Origin: Nitrospirota bacterium
Lineage (GTDB): Bacteria; Nitrospirota; Thermodesulfovibrionia; Thermodesulfovibrionales; Dissulfurispiraceae
Assembly (NCBI GenBank): GCA_021791055.1
Contig: JAJYXI010000031.1
Coordinates: 1-38,777, forward strand
Direction of reading: 5' to 3'
DNA: 38,777 nt
Below are positions 2,426 to 27,854 of this stretch, piece after piece. How positions within the stretch are numbered: the first letter of the stretch is position 1; each line of letters opens with the position of its first letter. The position numbers and the translations under genes were made by a program. The notes under the pieces were generated by a model, which worked only from the letters and a program-made list of their open reading frames with translations, was not told the DNA's origin and searched no databases.

Positions 2426-3322
2426 ATGATTGAGTTAGTAAAAGGCACGAAAATAGATTTCATGGGAAAGAAGATATATGCCTTTATTATATCCGGTATT
2501 TTCTCAGTGCTCGGCATTATAGCCATAGTCCAGATAGGGCTCGATAAGGCAAACTTAGGTGTTGATTTTGCAGGCGGCACAGCCGTCCAGATTAAATTTA
2601 CCCAGTCTGTCCAGCTTCATGATGTGAGGATTGCATTAGAGGAGAGCGGACTGAAGGACTTTGACCTTCAGGATTTGCCCACAGAAAACAAGGTTCTGAT
2701 AAGGGTGAAGAAGCAGGAAGAAAGGCTCGGCGGCTTCTCTGAGAGGATAACCCAGATACTCTCGCAGAAGTTCTCTGACAAAAAACCTGTGATTGACTCC
2801 ACGACCGAGATAGGGCCAAAGGTGGGTTCGAAATTGAGAAAGGATTCTTTATGGGCTATACTCGTGGCTACAGGAGGTATACTGGTATATGTTGCGTGGA
2901 GATTCCAGTTCAGATTCGGAGTGGGTGCAACCATTGCAACATTCCATGATGTCCTTGCAGTGCTCGGAATTTTCTATATTCTCAACAAGGAGATAAATCT
3001 TATCCTCTTAAGCGCACTGCTTACAATTGCGGGCTACTCGCTTACCGATACAGTTGTTGTATTTGACAGGATAAGGGAGAATATAAAGAGATATATAAAG
3101 GAGCCTGTTGAGGTTGTTATAAACAGGAGCATCAATGAAGTGCTTTCGAGGACAATTGTCACATCATTGACCGTTTTTCTTTCAGCGCTTGCATTATTTC
3201 TGTTCGGCGGAGAGGTTATACACGACTTTGCCCTCGCCATGTTAATAGGCGTAGCAATCGGAACATATTCTTCTATTTTTGTTGCAAGCCCTGTTGTTGT
3301 GCTTCTTGGCAAAAAGAGGTAA
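2426..3322 (+). CDS. secF: Protein translocase subunit SecF
   Basis: A 298-residue protein with six membrane helices and the SecF signatures VDFAGGTAVQIKF (about 46-58) and TDTVVVFDRIRENI (about 207-220). It partners SecD in the Sec accessory complex. Shine-Dalgarno GGAGG precedes the ATG at 2426. Length and order are normal, and its stop at 3320-3322 is followed within 13 nt by the recJ start, suggesting cotranscription. Confidence 0.96.
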   Translation: MIELVKGTKIDFMGKKIYAFIISGIFSVLGIIAIVQIGLDKANLGVDFAGGTAVQIKFTQSVQLHDVRIALEESGLKDFDLQDLPTENKVLIRVKKQEERLGGFSERITQILSQKFSDKKPVIDSTTEIGPKVGSKLRKDSLWAILVATGGILVYVAWRFQFRFGVGATIATFHDVLAVLGIFYILNKEINLILLSALLTIAGYSLTDTVVVFDRIRENIKRYIKEPVEVVINRSINEVLSRTIVTSLTVFLSALALFLFGGEVIHDFALAMLIGVAIGTYSSIFVASPVVVLLGKKR

Positions 3323-3332
3323 GGAGCTCCAG

Positions 3333-5093
3333 GTGCTTAACAGCACAGAATGCAAATGGCTGGTAAATAGAACCAATCCTGAGTATGTTGATTATATTTC
3401 GAGGGTCGCCACTGTATCTCCGGCATTTGCACAGGTATTGATCAACAGGGGAATAAAAACTCCTGAACAGCTCGATTCCTTTCTCAATTCTGATATTAAC
3501 AAACTGTCAGACCCGTTTGAACTGCCTTGTATTAAAATTGCAATAGATAGAATCAGAGAGGCAAAAAGGCAGGGAGAGAGGGTGCTTGTCCATGGAGATT
3601 ACGATGCAGACGGTGTTACTGCGACAGCCATAATGGTTGAGGGTCTCAGGAAGATTGGCTTGGATGTCCACTATTTCATACCAAACAGGATGTCCCACGG
3701 TTACGGTTTTGGCAGTGCAGGAATTGAAAAGGCAAAAGAGGTGGATGCGAAGCTCATAATCACTGTGGATTGCGGCATTACATCCTTTGATGCTGTTTCC
3801 GAAGCAAACTCTCTCGGGATAGATGTGATAATCACCGACCATCATGAACCACTCAGAGTCCAGAGTCTGGAGTCCGGAGTTAAGAGTGAAGAAGAATTGG
3901 AGTTTTTACTGCCAGAGGCAATTGCCGTAGTAAATCCTAAACTCTTAACTCATAACTCTCAACTCTCAATTCTTTCCGGTGCAGGCGTTGCTTTTAAACT
4001 CATACACGGTCTTTTTGAGAATAACATCGATGATGTATATGAACTCTTTGACCTCGCTGCTATTGGAACTGCTGCTGATGTGGTTCCTGTGGTTGGAGAC
4101 AACAGGGTTATCCTCAAAGAAGGCATCAAGCTAATACAGTCAGGAGAGAGGGCTGGTATCAGGGCGCTCAAGGATGCATCGGGAATAAGGCCCGACTTCT
4201 TTAAAACATCCTTTTTGTATTACACCATTATACCGAGAATTAATGCTGCAGGCAGGATGTCGGATGCAACCGATGTTGTCAGGCTTTTAACCACAAAATC
4301 TGAGGCAGAAGCTGAAGAGCTGTCCAAATGGCTTAATGAACTGAATTCCAAAAGACAGGAGATAGAGGGATCCGTTTATGATGATGCGATAGAGATGCTC
4401 AATCTAATGGGCAACAGCCACGGCGCTATTGTCCTTGCATCAGAGGGCTGGCATCATGGTGTGGTCGGTATTGTGGCATCGAGGATTGCAGAGCAATACT
4501 ACAGGCCGACATTTATACTTTCCATAGAAAACGGCGTGGCTAAAGGCTCTGCAAGGAGCATACCGTCTTTTGATATTCATTGCGGTCTTACGCTCTGCAA
4601 GGATATTCTCAAAAGATTTGGCGGCCATAAGCAGGCAGCGGGACTGAGTCTTTCTTTGGAGGATATCGAGAGATTCAGATTAAGGATATCCGAGGTTGTG
4701 AATAATGCCCTTTCGGATAATGACTTCATTCCTGCCTTGCATATTGATGCTGTTGTCAATATCTCTGATATAAGCATTGGACTTATAGATGAGCTTGCAA
4801 GGCTTGAGCCCTTTGGCTGCGGCAATGAGGAGCCGTTGTTTGGTGCAAAAGGGCTGGAGGCAATAAAACCAAGGGTTGTAGGAAATAACCATCTCAAAAT
4901 GCATCTGAAACAGAACGGCCGCAGAATAGACAGCATCGGTTTTGATTTCGGAGGATTATTGGACAGCATTGAAGATAATCCATTAATTGACGCTGCCTTT
5001 CTGCCGATAATAAATGAGTGGGACGGAGGGAGATACCTGCAGTTGAATCTGAAGGCGATAAGGCCGAATCAAAGTAATGGGGTAATGGAGTGA
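3333..5093 (+). CDS. recJ: Single-stranded-DNA-specific exonuclease RecJ
   Basis: A 5'-3' ssDNA exonuclease of the DHH family, acting in recombination and mismatch or base-excision repair. Visible motifs are GDYDADG (about 88-94), the VDCGIT motif, DHH (about 169-171), [10 protein letters not shown], the DHHA1 motif [10 protein letters not shown], and a C-terminal OB-like domain. The GTG at 3333 is chosen because AAGGAG (3321-3326) precedes it by 6 nt; the frame is also open upstream into secF. This gives 586 residues, a normal length. Two heptamer-repeat segments are translated in frame right after DHH (residues about 176-187 and 203-214), flanking the conserved [11 protein letters not shown]. 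Confidence 0.95.
3858..3974 (+). repeat. Heptamer repeat pair inside recJ
   Basis: Left arm: five 7-bp units at 3858-3892 (AGTCCAG, AGTCTGG, AGTCCGG, AGTTAAG, AGTGAAG). Right arm: five units at 3940-3974 (AACTCTT, AACTCAT, AACTCTC, AACTCTC, AATTCTT). The arms are equal in number and partly complementary (GAGTTAAGAGT pairs with ACTCTTAACTC), and the 47-nt loop encodes conserved RecJ residues. Confidence 0.8.
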
Positions 5094-11272: not shown

Positions 11273-12973
11273 ATGACCACTGCAGAGCTTATAGTCAAAT
11301 GCCTTGAAAATTATGGAGTCGAATATATCTTCGGCATACCTGGCGGGGCATTAGAACCTCTGAATAATGCCTTATACAAAAGCAAAATCAAAGTAGTCGT
11401 TACAAAACATGAAGAAGGCGCTGCATTTATGGCAGACGGGTATGCGCGATTAAGCGGCAAGATAGGAGTATGTTTTGGTACAACAGGCCCCGGTGCTACG
11501 AATCTCATAACAGGCATCACATCTTCTCATGCAGATTCCATTCCTGTGCTTGCACTCACGGCTCAGGTTGCTACGGCTGTATTTGGCAAGGGAGCGGTGC
11601 AGGAATTTGCGGGTGAAAGTTTGAGTATCGTTAATATGTTCAGGAGGATCACAAAATACAGTGATATCATAATAAACGAAAAAAAGGCTCGGGATGTGAT
11701 ATCAAAGGCATTGAGAACTGCATTAACAGGGAAGACCGGACCGGTGCATATAAATCTTCCAACCGATATTATGAAGCGAGAGACCGCAGAAAGAGATAGC
11801 GTAAATTATATAGGACAGACGATGGTTTTTGACAGAGAGGGCGTGAAAAGGGCTGCGAGCATCCTTCTTAAGGCAAAAAGACCGGTGATTTTAGCAGGAT
11901 GGGGTGCGGTGCTTTCGAGGGCTGATAGGGAGCTTAAGGAACTGGCAGAACTCATGGGCATACCTGTTGCCACATCCCAGAAAGGGAAAGGTATTTTTAA
12001 TGAACTCCATCCCCTTTCTCTGGGCGTGTTTGGTTTTGCAGGTTCACCTGCGGCAAGAGAGTATATAATCGAAGCAAATAATATCGATGTCATGCTTGCT
12101 ATAGGTACGAGTTTTAATGAATGGATGACATCGAGCTGGGATAAAAGGTTACGCCCAAAGAAATCGATGATTCAGGTCGATATATATCCTGATGAAATCG
12201 GAAAGAATTATCCTGTAGCTGTTGGTATAACAGGAGATGCAAAGGTTGTTTTGCGGGAGCTTATTTACGAGTTAAAGAGGCAGTCAGGCAAAAATAAATG
12301 TGGATGTTCTTTCGAGAGAGAGGTGAAAAAACTTAAAGAGAGATTTTGGACAGTCGCAGAGAGGAGAATCATAAAATCGAATAGGGTGCCGTATAAGCCG
12401 CAGAGATTGATGAAAGACCTCATGGACAGTTTGCCGGCTGATGCTATATATTTCACAGATATCGGCAACAATATGGCGTGGGCTTTACGATATATTAATA
12501 TCGTAAGGCCATATTCTTTTTATATACCCCTCGGCTTTGCCTCGATGGGTTTTGGCGTAGCGGCGCCTATTGGAGCAAAGCTGGCTATGACTGACAGGCC
12601 TGTTGTCGCCATAGTCGGCGATGGAGGTTTTTTGATGAATGGTATGGAGGTGTCCACAGCGGTTAACTATAATATTCCTGTGATATGGGTGATAATGAAC
12701 AATTCCATGCTCGGAATGATATACCACGGATTGAAGCTTCTCTCCAGTCCTGAAGGTATTCCTTCTAAATTTAAGCAGGTGGATTTTGTTAAGATTGCAG
12801 AAGGACTTGGCGCAAGGGGAATCAGGATTACCAGACCTGGAGAAATTAATAAAAAGATGATAGATGATATAATTTCATCAGGGGCTCCTACTGTTCTGGA
12901 TGTGATAATAGATCCGGAAGAGGTTCCGCCAATTCAATCGAGAGTTGAAACACTTGAGAAACTTTATACGTAA
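11273..12973 (+). CDS. Thiamine-diphosphate enzyme, acetolactate synthase-like
   Basis: A 566-residue ThDP-dependent enzyme with the three usual domains. The N-terminal PYR domain carries the catalytic Glu (TKHEEGAAFMADGYARLSG, E47); a central FAD/nucleotide-like domain and the C-terminal ThDP/Mg motif (GDGGFLMNGMEV ... IMNNSMLGM, about 449-479) follow. It resembles the IlvB large subunit, but no small regulatory subunit is adjacent and the usual 'DAFQE' motif reads AVQEF, so the substrate is open. ATG at 11273 starts the conserved MTTAELIVKCLENYGVEYIFGIPGG; a TTG at 11255 is possible. The substrate-binding protein gene overlaps its end. Confidence 0.8.
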   Translation: MTTAELIVKCLENYGVEYIFGIPGGALEPLNNALYKSKIKVVVTKHEEGAAFMADGYARLSGKIGVCFGTTGPGATNLITGITSSHADSIPVLALTAQVATAVFGKGAVQEFAGESLSIVNMFRRITKYSDIIINEKKARDVISKALRTALTGKTGPVHINLPTDIMKRETAERDSVNYIGQTMVFDREGVKRAASILLKAKRPVILAGWGAVLSRADRELKELAELMGIPVATSQKGKGIFNELHPLSLGVFGFAGSPAAREYIIEANNIDVMLAIGTSFNEWMTSSWDKRLRPKKSMIQVDIYPDEIGKNYPVAVGITGDAKVVLRELIYELKRQSGKNKCGCSFEREVKKLKERFWTVAERRIIKSNRVPYKPQRLMKDLMDSLPADAIYFTDIGNNMAWALRYINIVRPYSFYIPLGFASMGFGVAAPIGAKLAMTDRPVVAIVGDGGFLMNGMEVSTAVNYNIPVIWVIMNNSMLGMIYHGLKLLSSPEGIPSKFKQVDFVKIAEGLGARGIRITRPGEINKKMIDDIISSGAPTVLDVIIDPEEVPPIQSRVETLEKLYT

Positions 12974-16087: not shown

Positions 16088-16093
16088 TATATG

Positions 16094-16798
16094 ATGACCT
16101 CCGGAATAGTTGTCCCTCCTATCTTCCAGAGTTTTTCTGTAAAGGCTTTTTTTACCACGAAGATGTCGGGCAGCAGCAAGGAGACCGTCTCTAAGATGGC
16201 TGATGTGCCCTTGAATAATATATACCTCCCGGTACAGAGACATACGGATAAGACCTTAGTATTGGATTATGATTTTGAGCCGAAGATAGCCGATGCTGTC
16301 ATTACAAACAGAAAGGGCATCTTGATAGGAGTCCAGGTAGCAGACTGCGTCCCTGTTCTCTTATATGATATTAAAAAGCATGTTGTCGGAGCTGTACATG
16401 CAGGCTGGAGGGGGGCTGCAGCAGAGATCCTGAAAAATACAATAAAGGCAATGACAGAGAGATTCTGCTCATTGCCGGGTGATATATTGGTCGCCATAGG
16501 CCCTGCCATAAGAGGGTGTTGTTACGGGGTCGGCTACGAGGTAATAGAGGCGGTTGAGAAAGTGACGAGTTCAGAGTTAAGAGTTAAAAGTTCAAAAGAC
16601 TACATAATTAGAAAAGGTGAAAAATACTGTCTTGATTTACCCACTGCCAATAAATATCAGGCCATTTCTTCAGGCGTCAAAACGGAAAATATATGGGTGT
16701 CCGATGAATGCACCTTCTGCCTTCCTGAAAAATATTACTCATACAGGTATGCAAAGGGGACTACAGGCAGGCAGTGCGGATTTATAGGAATTGTGTGA
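16094..16798 (+). CDS. pgeF: Purine nucleoside phosphorylase / laccase-domain protein YfiH
   Basis: A multicopper-oxidase-like (DUF152) protein of 234 residues. Members are known as purine nucleoside phosphorylases or peptidoglycan-editing factors. Metal-site and family motifs are seen: QVADCVPVLLYD, GAVHAGWRGAAAEI and AIGPAIRGCCYGVGYEV. The start is one of two adjacent ATGs (16091 or 16094). A 28-bp heptamer repeat is translated in frame as SSELRVKSSKD at about residues 158-168. It follows the kinase gene by a few bases. Confidence 0.88.
   Translation: MTSGIVVPPIFQSFSVKAFFTTKMSGSSKETVSKMADVPLNNIYLPVQRHTDKTLVLDYDFEPKIADAVITNRKGILIGVQVADCVPVLLYDIKKHVVGAVHAGWRGAAAEILKNTIKAMTERFCSLPGDILVAIGPAIRGCCYGVGYEVIEAVEKVTSSELRVKSSKDYIIRKGEKYCLDLPTANKYQAISSGVKTENIWVSDECTFCLPEKYYSYRYAKGTTGRQCGFIGIV
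16567..16594 (+). repeat. Four heptamer units inside pgeF
   Basis: GAGTTCA, GAGTTAA, GAGTTAA and AAGTTCA follow directly, period 7. The unit is the same type as AGTTAAG in recJ. Only one arm is present; no complementary arm follows. Confidence 0.75.
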
Positions 16799-16851: not shown

Positions 16852-17301
16852 ATGCAAAAGGCAAAGGATATAATGATAAGGGATGTGATAACAGTAAAGC
16901 CTGCCACTACCATAGAAGATCTGGCGCGGATATTTATAGAGAAGAATATCAGCGGTGCGCCTGTTGTTGATGATAATGGCGATTTGATCGGTATTGTCAC
17001 AGAGAACGACCTCATAAGCCAGAACAAAAGACTGCATATCCCGACGGTCGTGAGACTGTTTGACGCCTTTATTATGCTCGAAAGCCCCGGAAGGATAGAG
17101 AAAGAGATAAAGAAAATGGCTGCAGTTACAGTGGATGATATATGCACAAAGGATGTTATAACCGCTACCGAAGATATGCTGGTAGAGGATATAGCCACTA
17201 TCATGTCTGAGAAGAAGGTACATCTGATTCCTGTTGTGGATGGCAGGAAGGTTTGTGGCATAATCGGGAAGATGGACTTAATCAAGGGGATGGTGAAATA
17301 G
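16852..17301 (+). CDS. Tandem CBS-domain protein
   Basis: A 149-residue protein made almost only of two CBS domains (about 1-58 and 93-149), as in KDIMIRDVITVKPATTIEDLARIF and DICTKDVITATEDMLVEDIATIM. Such stand-alone pairs bind adenine nucleotides or S-adenosylmethionine and act as energy-state sensors, but the partner is not shown here. AAAGGAG precedes the ATG. Its stop codon TAG overlaps the start of the heptamer array at 17301. Confidence 0.88.
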   Translation: MQKAKDIMIRDVITVKPATTIEDLARIFIEKNISGAPVVDDNGDLIGIVTENDLISQNKRLHIPTVVRLFDAFIMLESPGRIEKEIKKMAAVTVDDICTKDVITATEDMLVEDIATIMSEKKVHLIPVVDGRKVCGIIGKMDLIKGMVK

Positions 17302-17371
17302 CTGATAGCTGATAGCTGATAGCTGATAGCTGATAGCAAAAGACTATGAGCTATGAGCTATGAGCCATGAG
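17301..17371 (+). repeat. Heptamer repeat pair across the tsaE start
   Basis: Left arm: five exact GCTGATA units, 17301-17335. Right arm: three CTATGAG units and one CCATGAG, 17344-17371. The reverse complement of the right arm (GCTCATA phase) differs from the left at one base per unit, so the arms pair with one mismatch every 7 bp over an 8-nt loop. The repeat contains the tsaE start codon. Confidence 0.85.
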
Positions 17372-17815
17372 CTGCGAATTATTGCTAAATCGCCGTCAGA
17401 GACCGAGGGTGTTGGTTTTAAACTCGGAATGTTTTTAAAAACACACGGCAGGGCAACTGTTTGTCTTTATGGAGACCTCGGCGCTGGAAAAACAACTCTA
17501 ATCAGGGGAATTGCATCGGCTTTCGGCATCCCTGAAAGAGATATAGGCAGCGCCAGCTTTGTTATAATTGCAGAATACGAGACCTCGCCTCCTTTTTATC
17601 ATATAGATCTTTACAGGATCGAGAGGGAAGATGACATCGAGGAATTGGGAGTTTGGGAATATATAAATTCGGGGGGGATTGCTGTTATCGAATGGGCTGA
17701 AAGGCTTTCCGAAATCCCTGAAGGTGCAATTACGGTAAAGATAAATTATATAGATGAGAAATCGAGAGAGATAATCATTGAGGGGATAGATGAAAAAGAT
17801 TGGAATAATATGTAA
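17360..17815 (+). CDS. tsaE: tRNA threonylcarbamoyladenosine biosynthesis ATPase TsaE
   Basis: TsaE is the ATPase that cycles the TsaB-TsaD complex in making t6A37 of ANN-decoding tRNAs. The 151-residue protein has the P-loop LYGDLGAGKTTLIRGIA (about 36-52), a Thr/Ser-rich SASFVIIAEYE segment in place of the usual SPTF, and HIDLYRI. The only ATG in frame (17360) lies inside the heptamer array, and no Shine-Dalgarno precedes it, so the first residues (MSHEL) come from the repeat. It overlaps nadK by 26 bp. Confidence 0.9.
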   Translation: MSHELRIIAKSPSETEGVGFKLGMFLKTHGRATVCLYGDLGAGKTTLIRGIASAFGIPERDIGSASFVIIAEYETSPPFYHIDLYRIEREDDIEELGVWEYINSGGIAVIEWAERLSEIPEGAITVKINYIDEKSREIIIEGIDEKDWNNM

Positions 17816-18654: not shown

Positions 18655-20964
18655 ATGAATTGCATTATGATTTATTTAAAAAGGATTTTTATTTATATGC
18701 TCCCACTCTTTCTGATGATTTTTACTTTATGCCACGAAGCCTCGGCAGAATACGGCACCAATCAGACAATCCTCCAGAAGATACGGTACATTGACGCCAA
18801 GCAGGAGCATGTTATCAAAGCGGCATATATAATTACCGAAATCAAGGAGACAAGATACATCGGAGAGGGAGTGTTTTCAAAGAAGGCTGATGGAAAGTTT
18901 ATAGTTGTAAGGTTTAAGGTCCACAACAAAGGCAGCATTGCGATTCCGACAAACACCCTTACAGACCTTATGCTGATTGACGGCAAAAAGAAGCGCTGGG
19001 ATTACTCTTTGGGCGCAACAGGCTCTATGAGGCTTGGCACAGAGAGTTTTGGGAGAATGGAGATAGCCCCTGATAAAGGGATAGAAGATGTTGTAGTATT
19101 CGAAGTCCCGGAAGATGTGCGTGATTATCTTATCCTTCTTCCCGGCGGCGCAAAGGTATCTGCTCCCAAAAAGCAAGAAAATGCGAAGAGCGAAGAACCG
19201 AAATCAGAGGGCAAAAAAAACATAAAAATCATAACCAACTCCGCAACTCTGAGGTCAAGACCATCCTTTGGCTCCCAGCCTGTCACATGGGCTGTAAAGG
19301 GAGCAGTATTTGATGTTATAAGTGAGATTACTGACAGCGAAGGCAGAAAATGGTATAGGGTGAAAACCTCTGACGGCCGGGAAGGCTGGATAAAAGATAA
19401 GGTTGTCAGTCTGTCGTCATTTAAGTCAGAAGATAATCAGGATAAAGTTAAAAAGGCTGACGCTGCCAGCTTAAAAGCTGAAGAGAAGGTGGAAACGAGG
19501 GCGGAGGAAAAGATAAAGGAGAAAGGAGTTAAGGAAAAAACAAAAAGGGATGGCAGACAAAAGGAACAAGCCTCTGCAAAAACTGTTAAAAATAAGTCAG
19601 ACAAAAAATCCCTGCAGGAACTGCTGGATGCGGCAGGTATATTTTACAGGGAGGGAAAGTGTAAGGACTTTATCAATGCCAATGAGAAGGCCATCGAAAT
19701 AGCCTCAAGACAAAACAATATTGCAGTTGAAGGAAAGCTCCATTACAATGTGGCAGAATGCTACGCAAGGTTAAATAGATATGATGAGGCCCAAAAACAT
19801 CTTGACAATGCCGTCAACATCGCTGCAAGGCTAAATGACTCAGAGCTCGAAATCCTTGCCCTGATTGACAAGAGCAGGGTGCTTGCTGCTAAAGGAGACA
19901 AAAGAAGCTCGGCAGAAATTTTTAAGATAGCCTCTGAGAGGGCAAATAAGGAGATATTCCTGAATCTCGCAGTTAAAGATGATATAAAGGCGCTTGTTTC
20001 ACTGCAGATTGCCCACATTCTGTTTGACATGGGAGAAAAGGATAAGGCCAAAGAGAGACTTGAGTATGCCTTAATGGTGAATCACGATTTTAATCTTGAG
20101 AAGAGCATTGTAAGCACTTTGAAGTCATCAGATATTGAGATGCATAAGGAGATATCCGATATAGACGGGAGGCTTGACGAGGCATGGGCATCTTATGAGA
20201 GGGGCGATTATAAAGACATGGAGAGGATTTCAAGAGACGCCGCTGATACAGCAAAGAGATTAGGTTATAAGAGAGGAGTATTCGGCGGTAATTACTACCT
20301 TGCCATGTCATTTATAAACATCGATGAGTACGACAAGGCGATAGATCATGCACTGCTTGCTCAGGAGATGTCTGAAAAAGGCAATGACGAAACGAGGCTT
20401 GGCATGGTCTACAACCTTATAGGGAATATCTTCAAACAGAAGAAGGCATACGAAAAGGCATTGTATTATTACAACAGATACCTTGATAGCGTGAAGAAGA
20501 CAGGGAACAGGGAAGGAGAAGCAGTGGCGCTGAACAATATCGGGAATGTGCTGCTGGATAAAGGGGAATACAGGGCTGCACTTAAGTATTATGAGGATTC
20601 CCTGAAGATAAGTATCGAAATAGGAACCGTCAGACATATGATTGCTCAGGAATACCTGAGCATAGGCCGTGCATTGAAGAAGCTCTCTGATTATAAAAAT
20701 GCGGAGAAGAGTATAAGCATTGCGATGAATATATTCAAGGACCTGGGGAATGAGGGAGGCGAGATTGTAGGCCTTCTGGAGATGGCGGATAATTATGCGC
20801 TTCAGGCAGAATATGCCTCTGCCATAGAAATCCTTGAGAATAATCTCAGCCGTGCAGAGAGATTCGGCATGAAGCAGAGCTTCATAGACAATCTCATAAA
20901 CAATTCTGAAAAAAACAGAGACTATTTAAGGGCAGAGAAATACAAAAAGGCGAAGATTGACTGA
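18655..20964 (+). CDS. Exported SH3b and TPR repeat protein
   Basis: About 769 residues. A signal peptide has a hydrophobic core IFIYMLPLFLMIFTLC and cleavage near ASA-EYG. Next comes a DUF4352/TRF2-like beta domain at about 40-150 (GKFIVVRFKVHNKGSIAIPTNTL). A bacterial SH3 domain lies at about 185-245 (ATLRSRPSFGSQP ... GREGWI), then a Lys/Glu-rich linker and about ten TPR units to the end (AVALNNIGNVLLDKGEYRAALKYYED). ATG at 18655 with AAGGA upstream gives a proper signal peptide; a GTG at 18631 is less likely. A periplasmic scaffold near peptidoglycan is plausible, but the function is unknown. Confidence 0.75.
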   Translation: MNCIMIYLKRIFIYMLPLFLMIFTLCHEASAEYGTNQTILQKIRYIDAKQEHVIKAAYIITEIKETRYIGEGVFSKKADGKFIVVRFKVHNKGSIAIPTNTLTDLMLIDGKKKRWDYSLGATGSMRLGTESFGRMEIAPDKGIEDVVVFEVPEDVRDYLILLPGGAKVSAPKKQENAKSEEPKSEGKKNIKIITNSATLRSRPSFGSQPVTWAVKGAVFDVISEITDSEGRKWYRVKTSDGREGWIKDKVVSLSSFKSEDNQDKVKKADAASLKAEEKVETRAEEKIKEKGVKEKTKRDGRQKEQASAKTVKNKSDKKSLQELLDAAGIFYREGKCKDFINANEKAIEIASRQNNIAVEGKLHYNVAECYARLNRYDEAQKHLDNAVNIAARLNDSELEILALIDKSRVLAAKGDKRSSAEIFKIASERANKEIFLNLAVKDDIKALVSLQIAHILFDMGEKDKAKERLEYALMVNHDFNLEKSIVSTLKSSDIEMHKEISDIDGRLDEAWASYERGDYKDMERISRDAADTAKRLGYKRGVFGGNYYLAMSFINIDEYDKAIDHALLAQEMSEKGNDETRLGMVYNLIGNIFKQKKAYEKALYYYNRYLDSVKKTGNREGEAVALNNIGNVLLDKGEYRAALKYYEDSLKISIEIGTVRHMIAQEYLSIGRALKKLSDYKNAEKSISIAMNIFKDLGNEGGEIVGLLEMADNYALQAEYASAIEILENNLSRAERFGMKQSFIDNLINNSEKNRDYLRAEKYKKAKID

Positions 20965-20968
20965 AATT

Positions 20969-21736
20969 ATGGATACACGAGACAGCTTGAAAATCGTGCT
21001 TGAGTTTTATAAAGAACTCGGTTTTGAGAGACTACCCCTTAGTATGGAGTGTTGGGGTGATGGAGTGATGGGTGAAAGTAGAGGGTTATCCAATACTCCA
21101 ATACTCCAACACCCCAATTTGCCACCGCAGGTTAGCGGTTACGATAAAGCCAGCGCATTGGAAGCCCTCCGTGAGGAGATAGGCGACTGCCGGAGATGCA
21201 AGCTCTCAAAAGAGAGGACGCACATTGTCTTTGGCGAAGGCAATGCAGATGCCAGAATAATGTTTATCGGCGAGGCGCCAGGAAGGGAAGAAGACCTTCA
21301 GGCAAGACCGTTTGTGGGAGATGCAGGACAGATTCTCACAAGCCTCATCAATAATATGGGCAAGGCATCAGGACTTAATTTCAAGCGGGAAGATGTTTAT
21401 ATCGCCAATATCGTGAAGTGCAGGCCGCCTATGAACCGCGACCCGCAAGATGATGAGATGGCCGCCTGTCTGCCCTTTCTTGAAAGACAGATAGAGATAA
21501 TTTCTCCGAAAGTAATAATGGCGCTTGGAAAGGTATCTGCATATACGCTTTTGGGCATTAAAGGGCCGATGAGTAAATTCTCGATAAATAAGGCAAGGGG
21601 TAAATTTTTTGAATATAGGGGAATACCTGTTATGCCGACATTCCATCCGGCATATTTTTTGAGAAATCCGAAGGATAAGCCTTTGACATGGGCTGATGCA
21701 CAGGCAGTGTTGAAAAAACTAAAAGGAGAAGAATGA
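20969..21736 (+). CDS. Type-4 uracil-DNA glycosylase (4Fe-4S)
   Basis: Removes uracil from DNA. Four cysteines expected to bind an iron-sulfur cluster are seen: C74 and C77 (CRRCKLS), C151 (VKCRPP) and C167 (MAACLPF). The motif GEAPGREED (101-109) and the HPAYFLRNP motif near the end also fit family 4. The 255-residue form includes about 26 residues (29-54) encoded by an octamer repeat between the short N-terminal helix and the catalytic domain. The start is ATG 20969 without a clear ribosome site; TTG at 20957 is possible. It overlaps the HIT gene by 4 bp. Confidence 0.92.
   Translation: MDTRDSLKIVLEFYKELGFERLPLSMECWGDGVMGESRGLSNTPILQHPNLPPQVSGYDKASALEALREEIGDCRRCKLSKERTHIVFGEGNADARIMFIGEAPGREEDLQARPFVGDAGQILTSLINNMGKASGLNFKREDVYIANIVKCRPPMNRDPQDDEMAACLPFLERQIEIISPKVIMALGKVSAYTLLGIKGPMSKFSINKARGKFFEYRGIPVMPTFHPAYFLRNPKDKPLTWADAQAVLKKLKGEE
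21044..21121 (+). repeat. Octamer repeat pair inside the uracil-DNA glycosylase gene
   Basis: Left arm: ATGGAGTG, TTGGGGTG, ATGGAGTG, ATGGGTGA (21044-21075). Right arm: CCAATACT, CCAATACT, CCAACACC, CCAATTTG (21090-21121). Four units each, period 8, and complementary apart from wobble and some mismatches, with a 14-nt loop. It is translated in frame. Confidence 0.8.
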
Positions 21737-24093: not shown

Positions 24094-24190
24094 ATGGGCA
24101 TATGAGTGAATGGGTGGATGAGCATGTGCGTTTTGATAATATTTCAAAGTATACTCATTTACTCATCAACACATTTACTCATATGCGACT
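24090..24190 (+). repeat. Octamer repeat pair in the ruvA-ruvB gap
   Basis: Left arm: GTAAATGG, GCATATGA, GTGAATGG, GTGGATGA, GCATGTGC (24090-24129). Right arm: ATACTCAT, TTACTCAT, CAACACAT, TTACTCAT, ATGCGACT (24151-24190). GCATATGAGT to GATGAG pairs over 25 nt with four mismatches, mostly wobble. It fills nearly the whole gap and ends 6 nt before the ruvB ATG, with no Shine-Dalgarno in between. Confidence 0.85.
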
Positions 24191-24196
24191 AATAAT

Positions 24197-25219
24197 ATGA
24201 GAATAGAAGACAGTGAAATAGGCCCACTTTCTCCTGAAGGAAGTCAGGAGGAGCTTACATATGAGATAAACCTCAGGCCACGCTCACTTGATGAATTTAT
24301 CGGACAGGAGCAGATTAAAGAGAATCTCAAGGTTTTTATTGCTGCGGCACGGCTCAGAAATGAGCCCCTTGACCATGTCCTTTTCTGCGGGCCTCCGGGA
24401 CTTGGAAAAACGACCCTTGCCACAATCATAGCCAATGAGCTGATGGTCAATATAAAAACAACATCCGGGCCTGTGCTCGAAAGACCCGGTGATCTGGCTG
24501 CAATACTCACCAATCTTTCTGACCGCGATATCCTGTTTATAGATGAGATTCACAGGCTGCCGAGGATTGTGGAAGAGGTTCTATACCCTGCGATGGAAGA
24601 CTATAAACTTGACATAATCATCGGACAGGGGCCTAACGCAAGGACACTGAAGCTCAATCTACCGAGATTTACCCTGATAGGCGCAACAACAAGGACAGGG
24701 CTTTTGACATCGCCACTAAGAGACAGATTCGGCGTTATATGCAGGCTTGAGTTTTATAATCCAGAAGAATTAAAGGAGATAGTAAGCCGTTCTGCCCATC
24801 TTCTTGAGATAGAGATAAAAGGCGATGCAGCCATAGAGATTGCAAAGAGGTCGAGAGGTACGCCAAGAATTGCGAACAGGCTCTTAAAGAGGATAAGGGA
24901 TTTTGCTCAGGTAAAAGGTGATGGAATTATTGATATGAAAATAACAAAGGATGCCCTCCTTGCCCTTAATGTTGACGGTCTTGGCCTTGACGAGATAGAC
25001 AGGAAACTGCTTCTGACAATAATAGAAAAATTCAGCGGAGGGCCTGCAGGAATTGATGCTATTGCCGCATCTTTAAGAGAGGACAGAGAGACAATAGAGG
25101 ATGTATATGAGCCTTATCTTTTGCAGGAAGGCCTGATTGAGAGGACATCGAGAGGAAGGCTCGCCACAAGACTGGCTTACGAGCATTTAGGGAGGAGTCT
25201 GCCTCAAGGGTTGTTTTGA
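24197..25219 (+). CDS. ruvB: Holliday junction helicase RuvB
   Basis: AAA+ motor of the RuvABC complex. The 340-residue protein opens its conserved part with [19 protein letters not shown]. It has Walker [10 protein letters not shown] (about 65-73), Walker [12 protein letters not shown], sensor 1 GATTR ([11 protein letters not shown]), the arginine finger region LRDRFG and the C-terminal winged helix ([28 protein letters not shown]). The ATG at 24197 directly follows the octamer hairpin. The next gene starts within 35 nt. Confidence 0.96.
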
Positions 25220-25251
25220 AAGGGAGCAATGACAGTAATGGGCGTTTATCA

Positions 25252-25779
25252 ATGAAGCTTTTGATGCATATATGCTGTGCCAATTGCGCTTTATATCCGC
25301 TGACCGTCATAAGACAGAAGGGCATTGATGTAAAGGGTCTCTGGTTTAATCCCAACATCCATCCATACACAGAATATAAAAGCAGACTGGATGCCCTTAA
25401 AAAGCTCGAAGCCCTGTGGGTTCTGAATGTGGAGTATATAGACTACTACGGGTTAAAAGAATATCTGCGAAATGTTGTCGGCAACGAAGACAACAGGTGC
25501 GAATATTGCTATACAGTGAGATTGGAGGAGACTGCTAAAAAGGCCAGAGAGATTAATGCCGATGCATTCACCACATCTTTACTGGTGAGTCCGTATCAAA
25601 AATTTGATATGATTATAGATATAGGAAGGATGATGCAGGACAGGTATTCTATCGAGTTTTACTTTGAGGATTACAGGAAGGGATTCAATGACGGTAGGAG
25701 GATGTCAAAGGAGCTTGAGCTTTACAGGCAGAAGTATTGCGGATGCATATATTCGGAGATGGAGCGGTATGGATATTAG
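25252..25779 (+). CDS. queH: Epoxyqueuosine reductase QueH
   Basis: QueH (former DUF208) performs the last step of queuosine synthesis, reducing epoxyqueuosine in tRNA, and replaces QueG in many bacteria. The cysteine clusters of the iron-sulfur and metal sites are present: HICCANC (C8, C9, C12), CEYC and YCGC near the end, along with WFNPNIHPYTEYKSR and LLVSPYQ. ATG at 25252 gives the family-typical start MKLLMHICCA; an upstream TTG at 25216 overlapping ruvB is less likely. QueA lies two genes downstream. Confidence 0.92.
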   Translation: MKLLMHICCANCALYPLTVIRQKGIDVKGLWFNPNIHPYTEYKSRLDALKKLEALWVLNVEYIDYYGLKEYLRNVVGNEDNRCEYCYTVRLEETAKKAREINADAFTTSLLVSPYQKFDMIIDIGRMMQDRYSIEFYFEDYRKGFNDGRRMSKELELYRQKYCGCIYSEMERYGY

Positions 25780-25789
25780 GGAGGAGATG

Positions 25790-26827
25790 ATGAGGAAGGG
25801 TCAAGGGTCAAGGGTCAAGGGTCAAGCAAAAAACTTTAGGATATTTGTTTTTTCTTATTTTCTTGTTACTTGTTACTTGCTACTTGCTACTGTCTCTTTC
25901 GCCGAGACTACCATAAGGGTTTTGCTTGTAGACGGAAAAAACTCAAAGATTCCAAAGAAGGATGAAAGGATTGAGAGATTCGGCAATGCAAAAGGAGATG
26001 TGCTTTTGAGCGGACTGAAATATTCAGGAGTTATTGAGGTCTGGAAAGGGGAAGGCGGTCTTTATATCGTGAATGAAATTCCTCTTGAGAATTATATAAA
26101 AGGCGTTGTTGCAGGCGAGGTGGGAAACAGCTGGGATATAGAGGCGTTGAAGGCACAGGCTGTTGTGGCAAGGACTTATGCGCTGCACCAAAAATTGAAT
26201 AACGGCAAGATGCCTTATCATCTTACATCATCCGTTTTACATCAGGTTTATAAAGGCGGCAATATCCCTGAAAACATAGCAAAGGCTGTAAATGATACAA
26301 AAGATGAAGTGTTGACATATGAAGGCAGGCCGATAATTGCATATTATCATTCCACAAGCGGCGGCATGACAGAAGACCCTGCCGAGGTATTTGGAAAGAG
26401 CTATCCATATTTAAAGCCTGTTGAAACGAGCTGCGAGCTTTCTCCTTTCTATATGTGGGAAAAGCGCATACCGGTATCGGAGGTCGAAAGGATATCGAAT
26501 ATAAGTGGCATAAAGGAGATCATTATAGATTCTCTTACGGTTTCGAATCGCGCAAAGGACTTGAAGATTATTACAGAGAGCGGCGAATATAAAATCCCTG
26601 CCAAAGACTTAAGGAAGAACCTCGGATGGGATAAGCTGCCGAGCACAATGATAACAAGTATCACAAGGGATGAGGATATATTCATATTTGAGGGCAAAGG
26701 ATATGGTCACGGCGTCGGCATGTGCCAGTGGACTGCCCTTGATATGGCAAAGAAGGGAATGAATTACAGAGAGATACTTTCAAAGTTCTATCCCGGAGCC
26801 GTTATAGAACTATATGAAAACCGCTGA
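25790..26827 (+). CDS. SpoIID/LytB-domain exported protein
   Basis: A 345-residue exported SpoIID-family protein. These are lytic transglycosylases or amidase activators acting on peptidoglycan, with amidase-enhancer relatives in non-sporulating Gram-negatives. Family motifs: IPLENYIKGVVAGEV, EALKAQAVVARTYAL, YYHSTSGGMTEDPAEVF and GKGYGHGVGMCQWTALDMAKKG. ATG 25790 is chosen for GGGAGG 5 nt upstream; it gives a clear signal peptide ending VSFA-E. The positive region (KGQGSRVKGQ) is encoded by GGGTCAA heptamers, and the end of the hydrophobic core (LVTCYLLLATV) by facing heptamers. Confidence 0.88.
   Translation: MRKGQGSRVKGQAKNFRIFVFSYFLVTCYLLLATVSFAETTIRVLLVDGKNSKIPKKDERIERFGNAKGDVLLSGLKYSGVIEVWKGEGGLYIVNEIPLENYIKGVVAGEVGNSWDIEALKAQAVVARTYALHQKLNNGKMPYHLTSSVLHQVYKGGNIPENIAKAVNDTKDEVLTYEGRPIIAYYHSTSGGMTEDPAEVFGKSYPYLKPVETSCELSPFYMWEKRIPVSEVERISNISGIKEIIIDSLTVSNRAKDLKIITESGEYKIPAKDLRKNLGWDKLPSTMITSITRDEDIFIFEGKGYGHGVGMCQWTALDMAKKGMNYREILSKFYPGAVIELYENR
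25798..25890 (+). repeat. Heptamer repeat pair in the SpoIID signal-peptide coding region
   Basis: Left arm: four exact GGGTCAA units, 25798-25825. Right arm: CTTGTTA, CTTGTTA, CTTGCTA, CTTGCTA, 25862-25889. Equal number and period; CAAG in every left unit faces CTTG in every right unit (4 of 7 bases pair in each unit). The loop is about 37 nt. Confidence 0.85.
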
Positions 26828-27854
26828 TTTTGACTTTTACCTGCCAAAAGATTCGATTGCATTAAGACCTCCTGAAAAAAGAGATGATTCGAGGCTTCTC
26901 GTTCTCCACAGGGATGGAGCTGTCGAACACAGGAGATTTTCTGACATTGTCGAATATCTGAAAGAAGGGGATATGCTTTTGCTGAACAACACAAAGGTAT
27001 TTCCCGCGCGGATTATTGTTACAAAACCTTCAGGCGGAAAGGTTGATATCCTGCTTGTTAGAGAAATGGATGGAGACGGGACATGGGAGGTAATGTACAG
27101 GGGAAGATTCAGCGGAGTATTGGCTATAGGAAACGATATTAAGGCAGAAGTGCGGATAGAAAAGAATGGAGATGGCAGAAGGAAGTTTCTGAGATTTTTA
27201 AATATTGAGCCATCAGAGGTAAGAGATGCGCTCTGGCAATACGGCTATATGCCTTTGCCGCCGTATATAAACCGCATGCCTGATGAAGGAGACAAACAGA
27301 GATACCAGACCGTTTATGCGGAAAATCAGGGATCAATAGCTGCCCCAACAGCAGGGCTCCATTTTACCGAAGATCTTCTTAATAGGATAAAAGCTAAAGG
27401 GGTACATGTTGAGGCATTGACACTTCATGTAGGCGCCGGTACATTTAAACCTATAAAAACAGAGTCTTTAGAAGAACATAAAATGGATCCGGAATATTTT
27501 GAGATAAAAATGTCACTGATAGAAAAAATAGAGAGGGTAAGAGAGTCGGATAGCAGGATTATAACTGTCGGGACAACGGCAACAAGGGCAGTGGAGGGTT
27601 TTATGAGCGGTATCTATCAGAGATGCGGCTCTTTAAACGGTTTTTTGCATGGATATACGGATATATTTATTTGTCCTGGGTACAAATTTAAGGCAGTGGA
27701 CAGCCTTGTAACCAATTTTCACCTGCCCTGCTCAACACCTCTTATGCTTGCATCTGCATTTTGCAGTTTCGAAAAGCTATTGAATGCCTACAAGGAGGCG
27801 ATTGCCATGGGTTATAGATTTTTTTCCTATGGTGATGCTATGCTCATTCTATGA
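26814..27854 (+). CDS. queA: S-adenosylmethionine:tRNA ribosyltransferase-isomerase QueA
   Basis: Adds the epoxycyclopentanediol part to preQ1 in tRNA, making epoxyqueuosine, which QueH then reduces. The 346-residue protein shows FDFYLPKDSIALRPPEKRDDSRLLVL, NNTKVFPARI, YGYMPLPPYINR, YQTVYAENQGSIAAPTAGLHFT, LHVGAGTF and NFHLPCSTPLMLASAF. It starts inside the end of the SpoIID gene (14-bp overlap) and its stop overlaps the next start by ATGA. Confidence 0.96.
   Translation: MKTADFDFYLPKDSIALRPPEKRDDSRLLVLHRDGAVEHRRFSDIVEYLKEGDMLLLNNTKVFPARIIVTKPSGGKVDILLVREMDGDGTWEVMYRGRFSGVLAIGNDIKAEVRIEKNGDGRRKFLRFLNIEPSEVRDALWQYGYMPLPPYINRMPDEGDKQRYQTVYAENQGSIAAPTAGLHFTEDLLNRIKAKGVHVEALTLHVGAGTFKPIKTESLEEHKMDPEYFEIKMSLIEKIERVRESDSRIITVGTTATRAVEGFMSGIYQRCGSLNGFLHGYTDIFICPGYKFKAVDSLVTNFHLPCSTPLMLASAFCSFEKLLNAYKEAIAMGYRFFSYGDAMLIL

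Follow-up and report, generated by a model that had tools for sequence, protein, structure and literature searches.

Probable rewriting of a spoIID signal peptide by a genome-wide family of paired heptamer arrays in a Nitrospirota bacterium

In this study, we analysed a stretch of DNA of 38,777 nucleotides from a Nitrospirota bacterium (the window, meaning the whole stretch) that contains a SpoIID-family gene whose predicted signal peptide is partly written by tandem 7-nt repeats. Its nearest named relatives likewise point to Nitrospirota, with Thermodesulfovibrio at 46-49% and a Nitrospirae MAG at 46%; a further MAG stands at 67%. We consider it probable that this signal peptide has been rewritten by a paired-array element found throughout the genome, and that such elements are kept at the starts of exported proteins where they spell a basic stretch followed by a hydrophobic one. 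Read directly from the DNA, and described below, are the arrays with their frame, polarity and distribution, the differences between orthologues, and the way in which hydrophobic arrays are sorted into predicted signal peptides.

The SpoIID signal peptide and its orthologues

The features of the locus are collected in Table 1; membership of the product in the SpoIID family is indicated by its Pfam match (6e-27). An earlier, sequence-only reading had described four GGGTCAA units encoding a charged n-region, KGQGSRVKGQ, and four CTTG(T/C)TA units encoding the end of the hydrophobic core. Both descriptions agree with our analysis, in which the four GGGTCAA copies, all exact, lie at 25798-25825 and the four CTTG(T/C)TA copies at 25862-25889, both in frame with the SpoIID-family ORF read from ATG 25790, and in which the tandem units exceed chance, as is required of heptanucleotide simple sequence repeats (SSRs). 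Translation from this ATG gives MRKGQGSRVKGQAKNFRIFVFSYFLVTCYLLLATVSFA followed by ETTIRV. The predicted peptide has a basic n-region of net positive charge (MRKGQGSRVKGQAK), a hydrophobic core (IFVFSYFLVTCYLLLATV, the pyrimidine-rich arm having a mean KD of 2.1 in frame) and small residues at -3 and -1, with SFA preceding ETTIRV; in most close orthologues, too, the mature part is preceded by A. It resembles Sec signal peptides in its n-region, its h-region and the small residues before the predicted cut, and differs from them in that the DNA of the n- and h-regions consists of tandem heptamers. No RR, as expected of a twin-arginine (Tat) motif, is present within the predicted signal peptide.

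Table 1. Positions in the window of the spoIID signal peptide, its gene and neighbours, and of sister arrays
Feature	Position	Strand	Remarks
queH	25216-25779		Directly upstream of the spoIID gene; Pfam QueH 3e-57
GGAGG ribosome-binding site	25780..25784	+	5 nt 5' of ATG 25790 (sequence)
Alternative start, ATG	25787		
Start used, ATG	25790		
SpoIID-family protein gene, 345 aa	25790..26827	+	Pfam SpoIID
Predicted signal peptide, 38 aa	25790..25903	+	Cleavage after SFA inferred
Purine-rich arm, AAGGGTC x4.4	25796..25826	+	TRF; period 7, 100% match; encodes KGQGSRVKGQ (n-region)
Spacer, 35 nt	25827..25861	+	Encodes AKNFRIFVFSYF (h-region start)
Pyrimidine-rich arm, CTTG(T/C)TA x4.3	25862..25891	+	TRF; period 7, 95% match; encodes LVTCYLLLAT (h-region end)
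queA-like gene (presumed; name read off the protein)	26814-27854		Downstream of the spoIID gene
Sister element, CAGAGTC arm + AACTCTT arm	3854..3973		Inside ORF 3279-5093
Sister array, GAGTTAA	16567..16596		Inside ORF 16091-16798
Sister element, ATAGCTG x5 / CTATGAG x4	17298..17372		Between ORFs 16852-17301 and 17360-17815
Sister octamer element, TGGAGTGA / TCCAATAC	21045..21117		Inside ORF 20957-21736

Judging from the available start codons, the arms are almost surely translated, because the only in-frame start codon 3' of the first arm and before the mature domain is a lone TTG inside the second arm, and a start there would leave no n-region. A translation start downstream of the repeat, one of two outcomes that the sequence-only reading had named as refuting it, was rejected on this ground. 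Read in the three frames, the purine-rich arm gives KGQGSRVKGQ, RVKGQGSRVK or GSRVKGQGS and the pyrimidine-rich arm LVTCYLLLAT, LLLVTCYLL or CYLLLATCY. The earlier description of the arms as facing each other holds in part: two arms are present and in frame, but they form a poor hairpin pair, since their units are complementary at 4 of 7 positions and single-strand folding exceeds that of shuffled sequences only slightly (z -2.0 on the + strand and -1.2 on the - strand). A perfect hairpin as the common structure of the element was rejected for the same reasons.

Of 60 relatives searched with the mature part as query, 56 have an orthologue of SpoIID. The sequence upstream of a conserved AETTIRVLL varies greatly among the 30 nearest loci, and arrays of other units stand at the signal-peptide site in some of them: arrays of GGCAATA/TTGCCTA, found in two genera (L019, L021), arrays of AGCGTTG, then CTCGTTA, then TTCACTA (L033), an AATTTCA array (L022), ACACAGA/TCTGTCT arrays (L024), a GGCTAAA array (L032) and TTCACTA arrays (L017, L018). 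In most of the other loci the predicted signal peptide is plain, with about 25-37 residues counted from inferred starts. The comparison with orthologues that the sequence-only reading had proposed thus shows other heptamers at the same place, and no orthologue with the same residues but no repeat was found among them, the residues being different and the repeats different or absent. When one detection rule was applied to 140-nt windows, with other windows of the same loci as controls, 7- or 8-nt arrays were found in the signal-peptide window of 10 of the 30 SpoIID loci as compared with 15 of 740 control windows (2%; Fisher 3.6e-9, an indicative value that is overstated by the relatedness of the loci); the same rule detected none in the mature coding regions of the 30 loci. 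Arrays at this site appear to turn over fast, because a maximum-likelihood tree built from the mature protein requires at least four changes in their presence or absence and at least nine in their unit type, assigned by hand, while the mature SpoIID proteins of the seven closest loci are still 82-86% identical to that of the window.

Immediately 5' of spoIID, close relatives fall into two types, with either a queH-like gene or the end of another gene (L017, L018 and L021 versus L016, L019, L020 and L022), and SpoIID itself stays close among them despite the two upstream types. Around spoIID-like genes of other phyla, 7-nt arrays were also seen in L149, L150 and L131 (cyanobacteria) and in L136 and L141 (Omnitrophota), L136 carrying the same GGGTCAA unit as the window.

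Arrays across the genome and within coding sequence

We sampled about 906 kb of stretches from the same genome, the first 304 kb of which were partly chosen by GGGTCAA matches. Autocorrelation over the 906 kb gave 90 arrays at lag 7 and 33 at lag 8, with 0-6 at each of lags 3-6 and 9-13, and the first 304 kb held 50 lag-7 arrays versus one in a third-order Markov sequence of equal size. At a stricter threshold 99 arrays with 7- or 8-nt units remained, or about 110 per Mb. The heptamer arrays have a median length of 32 nt (quartiles 30-34), and the 73 heptamer arrays comprise 43 different units, a common family sequence being absent. Where arrays lie close together, a purine-rich arm precedes a pyrimidine-rich arm in 22 of 24 pairs, and in each of these 22 the two arms share one period. 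Complementarity between the arms is 0.73 as against 0.617 for re-paired arms, a level reached by none of 5000 re-pairings. In relatives, the purine-to-pyrimidine order is seen in 15 of 18 pairs and a common period in 12 of 19.

Two further octamer arrays of the window lie outside the listed long ORFs, TTTACTCA at 231-270 and TACTCATT at 24152-24182, the latter shortly 5' of an ORF at 24197. In L204 of the relative G005, heptamer and octamer arrays of several kinds are stacked at 2261-2470 and 12385-12674; this is the densest sample (10 arrays in 13 kb), and its genome has no Y1_Tnp match.

Many of the 7- and 8-nt arrays lie in frame within genes and others in intergenic DNA. Of the coding arrays, 52 of 73 lack stops in each of the three frames of the coding strand, versus 13 of 73 on the opposite strand; for intergenic arrays the count is 9 of 46 strands. 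Compared with solved structures, the array-coded stretch aligns with nine extra residues in Dxs and six in LolD; ProC (L098) was rejected as a further case of insertion, as it has only about two extra residues relative to solved structures. The GGGTCAA unit also writes KGQGSRVKGQ-type peptides in a HemD-type protein (L059) and in 5-FTHF cyclo-ligase (L060). Since this peptide occurs in cytosolic enzymes and arrays occur in Dxs and LolD, the element has no special link to export, and signal peptides are one tolerant and well-matched landing site and not its purpose. A single ORF of 1381 aa in L059 (2603-6262) contains five in-frame arrays.

Predicted signal peptides carry more arrays than other coding sequence (0.75 per kb versus 0.10-0.13 per kb, a 6-7-fold difference), and 12 of 181 genes with a predicted signal peptide bear an array versus 10 of 631 others (p 8e-4), although these calls rest on a crude home-made rule applied to crude gene calls and at least two look false (L088 and the HisA-like gene of L093). 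The enrichment is confined to predicted signal peptides, as N-terminal windows taken together hold 18 of 99 arrays in 16% of the sequence and are barely enriched. It is the hydrophobic arrays that are sorted: they account for 6 of the 11 arrays within predicted signal peptides and for 3 of the 62 at other coding sites (p 1.9e-4). Stop-free purine-rich arms have a mean KD of -1.8 and a net charge of +1.5, and stop-free pyrimidine-rich arms a mean KD of +0.7 and a net charge of about 0. The search among other exported proteins of the genome, also suggested by the sequence-only reading, found several with similar arms. Eight of the nine other array-bearing signal-peptide candidates have Pfam domains of exported families (OEP, SBP_bac_5, DPBB_1/SPOR, M16, M23, ApbE, ZnuA and TPS), the ninth, L062, having no Pfam match, and in most of these candidates the purine-rich arm precedes the pyrimidine-rich arm. 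A 27-nt TTCACTA pattern is present in 13 of 296 genomes of the phylum. At five of eight inspected loci such arrays write the h-region of an exported protein, for example LLFTIHYSLFTAYA; from their sequences we take these proteins to be TolB-, CbiM-, SpoIID- and Lpt-like and a lipoprotein. Another of the eight loci lies within an RsmE-like protein.

Proposed explanation and alternatives

The proposed element is made of two short tandem arrays with units of 7 nt (elsewhere 8 nt), the purine-rich arm preceding the pyrimidine-rich one. Codons rich in purines yield K, R, E, Q, S and G, and those rich in pyrimidines L, F, C, T and V. Neither 7 nor 8 is a multiple of 3, so that a near-identical peptide cycle is read in all frames, and because a purine-then-pyrimidine order reads the same on either strand, an insertion tends to give a charged and then a greasy stretch. 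Any stop-free element therefore tends, at whatever site it enters, to encode polar and basic residues first and more hydrophobic ones after them. At the beginning of an exported protein the result would be a usable Sec signal peptide, which would be kept, and inside cytosolic proteins mostly hydrophilic arrays would survive, in loops. The overall process would be a repeated arrival of array elements, which probably enter whole, followed by a filter on peptide properties in which selection presumably does the sorting, and the array-coded peptide would then function in export. The sequence-only reading had spoken of the recruitment of a repeat as an export signal. Both the n-region and the end of the h-region are indeed encoded by the arms, but with the GGGTCAA peptide also present inside cytosolic enzymes, recruitment is best read as tolerance together with a property match kept by selection. 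A bolder form of the proposal, in which the paired heptamer and octamer elements are a strand- and frame-independent generator of signal peptides, Nitrospirota lineages repeatedly replace or create export signals by their insertion, and each element is copied and spread as a whole, is one that we hold only tentatively and think rather unlikely as a whole.

Tolerance alone might suffice, random arrays surviving in signal peptides, which are loosely constrained in sequence, while the match to a charged and a greasy region brings no advantage. We give this somewhat less than an even chance: many arrays also occur in intergenic DNA and in protein loops, but the sorting of hydrophobic arrays into predicted signal peptides argues that peptide properties act as a filter at the least. 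Between a filter and an advantage, the same data fit both. A role exerted mainly at the DNA or mRNA level, through a translation-controlling hairpin at the spoIID start or through copy-number switching, with the peptide as a by-product, is improbable. The arrays do follow directly on the ribosome-binding site and have 4-bp blocks capable of pairing, and heptamer arrays near start codons of Beggiatoaceae have been proposed as translation regulators (PMC4679880). Against this stand the weak folding and partial complementarity of the spoIID arms, the many arrays deep inside genes and the freedom from stops that marks the coding strand.

With respect to origin, each array could have been built from resident sequence by local replication slippage alone, which is compatible with the explanation of the effect that we favour. 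A period of 7 or 8 without other periods fits a polymerase footprint, and the long simple repeats of most genomes are most often heptanucleotides (cited in PMC4679880). We nonetheless find this doubtful: paired arms share their period and run from purine to pyrimidine, and pairs of arrays with identical units number 60 among the 73 heptamer arrays compared with 5.9 expected from shuffled units, and still 21 among 49 arrays when the window and the GGGTCAA-picked contigs are left out, an excess that speaks against purely local slippage. Movement by a Y1 (IS200/RAYT-like) transposase would be suggested by the four Y1_Tnp genes of the genome and by the paired short arms, which recall REP hairpins, but it is very improbable and was rejected as the driver. 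Array density does not co-vary with Y1_Tnp (Spearman 0.30, p 0.07), G005 reaches 77 arrays per 100 kb in a 96% complete genome without the gene, and the arrays have varying units and no common sequence. No array lies within about 3 kb of two of the four Y1 loci; the third has one weak octamer array and the fourth three arrays, none adjoining the gene. With neither co-variation nor adjoining arrays, the elements differ from a REP/RAYT system, in which hairpins have a Y1 transposase partner. Inverted repeats of at least 14 nt were absent near three of the four Y1 genes, and one was found near the fourth.

Relation to known repeats and implications

The commonness of heptanucleotide repeats is known, and polymerase slippage has been put forward as their cause (Mrazek 2007, cited in PMC4679880; PMC4692102). 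As described there, prokaryotic long heptanucleotide SSRs are 7-nt tandem units in few copies, scattered and phylogenetically patchy, like those described here, and units of multiples of three are the likeliest in coding regions. The arrays studied here differ in that there are many different units in one genome, paired purine and pyrimidine arms and 8-nt sisters, and in that they are often in frame. Rickettsia palindromic elements likewise occur both between genes and in frame inside them (Ogata 2000, cited in PMC1950309), but their families share a sequence, whereas here only the architecture is shared, the units vary and the arms are tandem arrays. The TAACTGA repeats of Beggiatoaceae form heptamer arrays of 2-6 copies at more than 100 per genome, but with one fixed unit that is mainly intergenic and upstream of start codons, and their description, as read here, mentions neither a paired arm nor a signal peptide (PMC4679880). 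PARCEL repeats, which are also coding, show dyad symmetry and are linked to membrane-targeted proteins, but they consist of a 25-residue motif in long tracts and are not the signal peptide itself (PMC2996958). While heptanucleotide repeats and in-frame elements are already known, paired purine/pyrimidine arms and a repeat-built signal peptide are apparently new, as we found no description of either, or of heptamers in Nitrospirota, in a literature search that covered few subscription papers.

For annotators, these findings are a warning that many odd in-frame inserts (SQKSEVRSQK, KGQGSRVKGQ, LLFTIHYSLFTAYA) are repeat DNA. More generally, the origin of new targeting signals is an open question that is usually argued from random-sequence experiments. 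The arrays described here would represent a natural and repeated source of predicted signal peptides that is visible in the DNA, and the simple reason why such a source works may lie in repeat units whose length three does not divide, together with purine/pyrimidine polarity.
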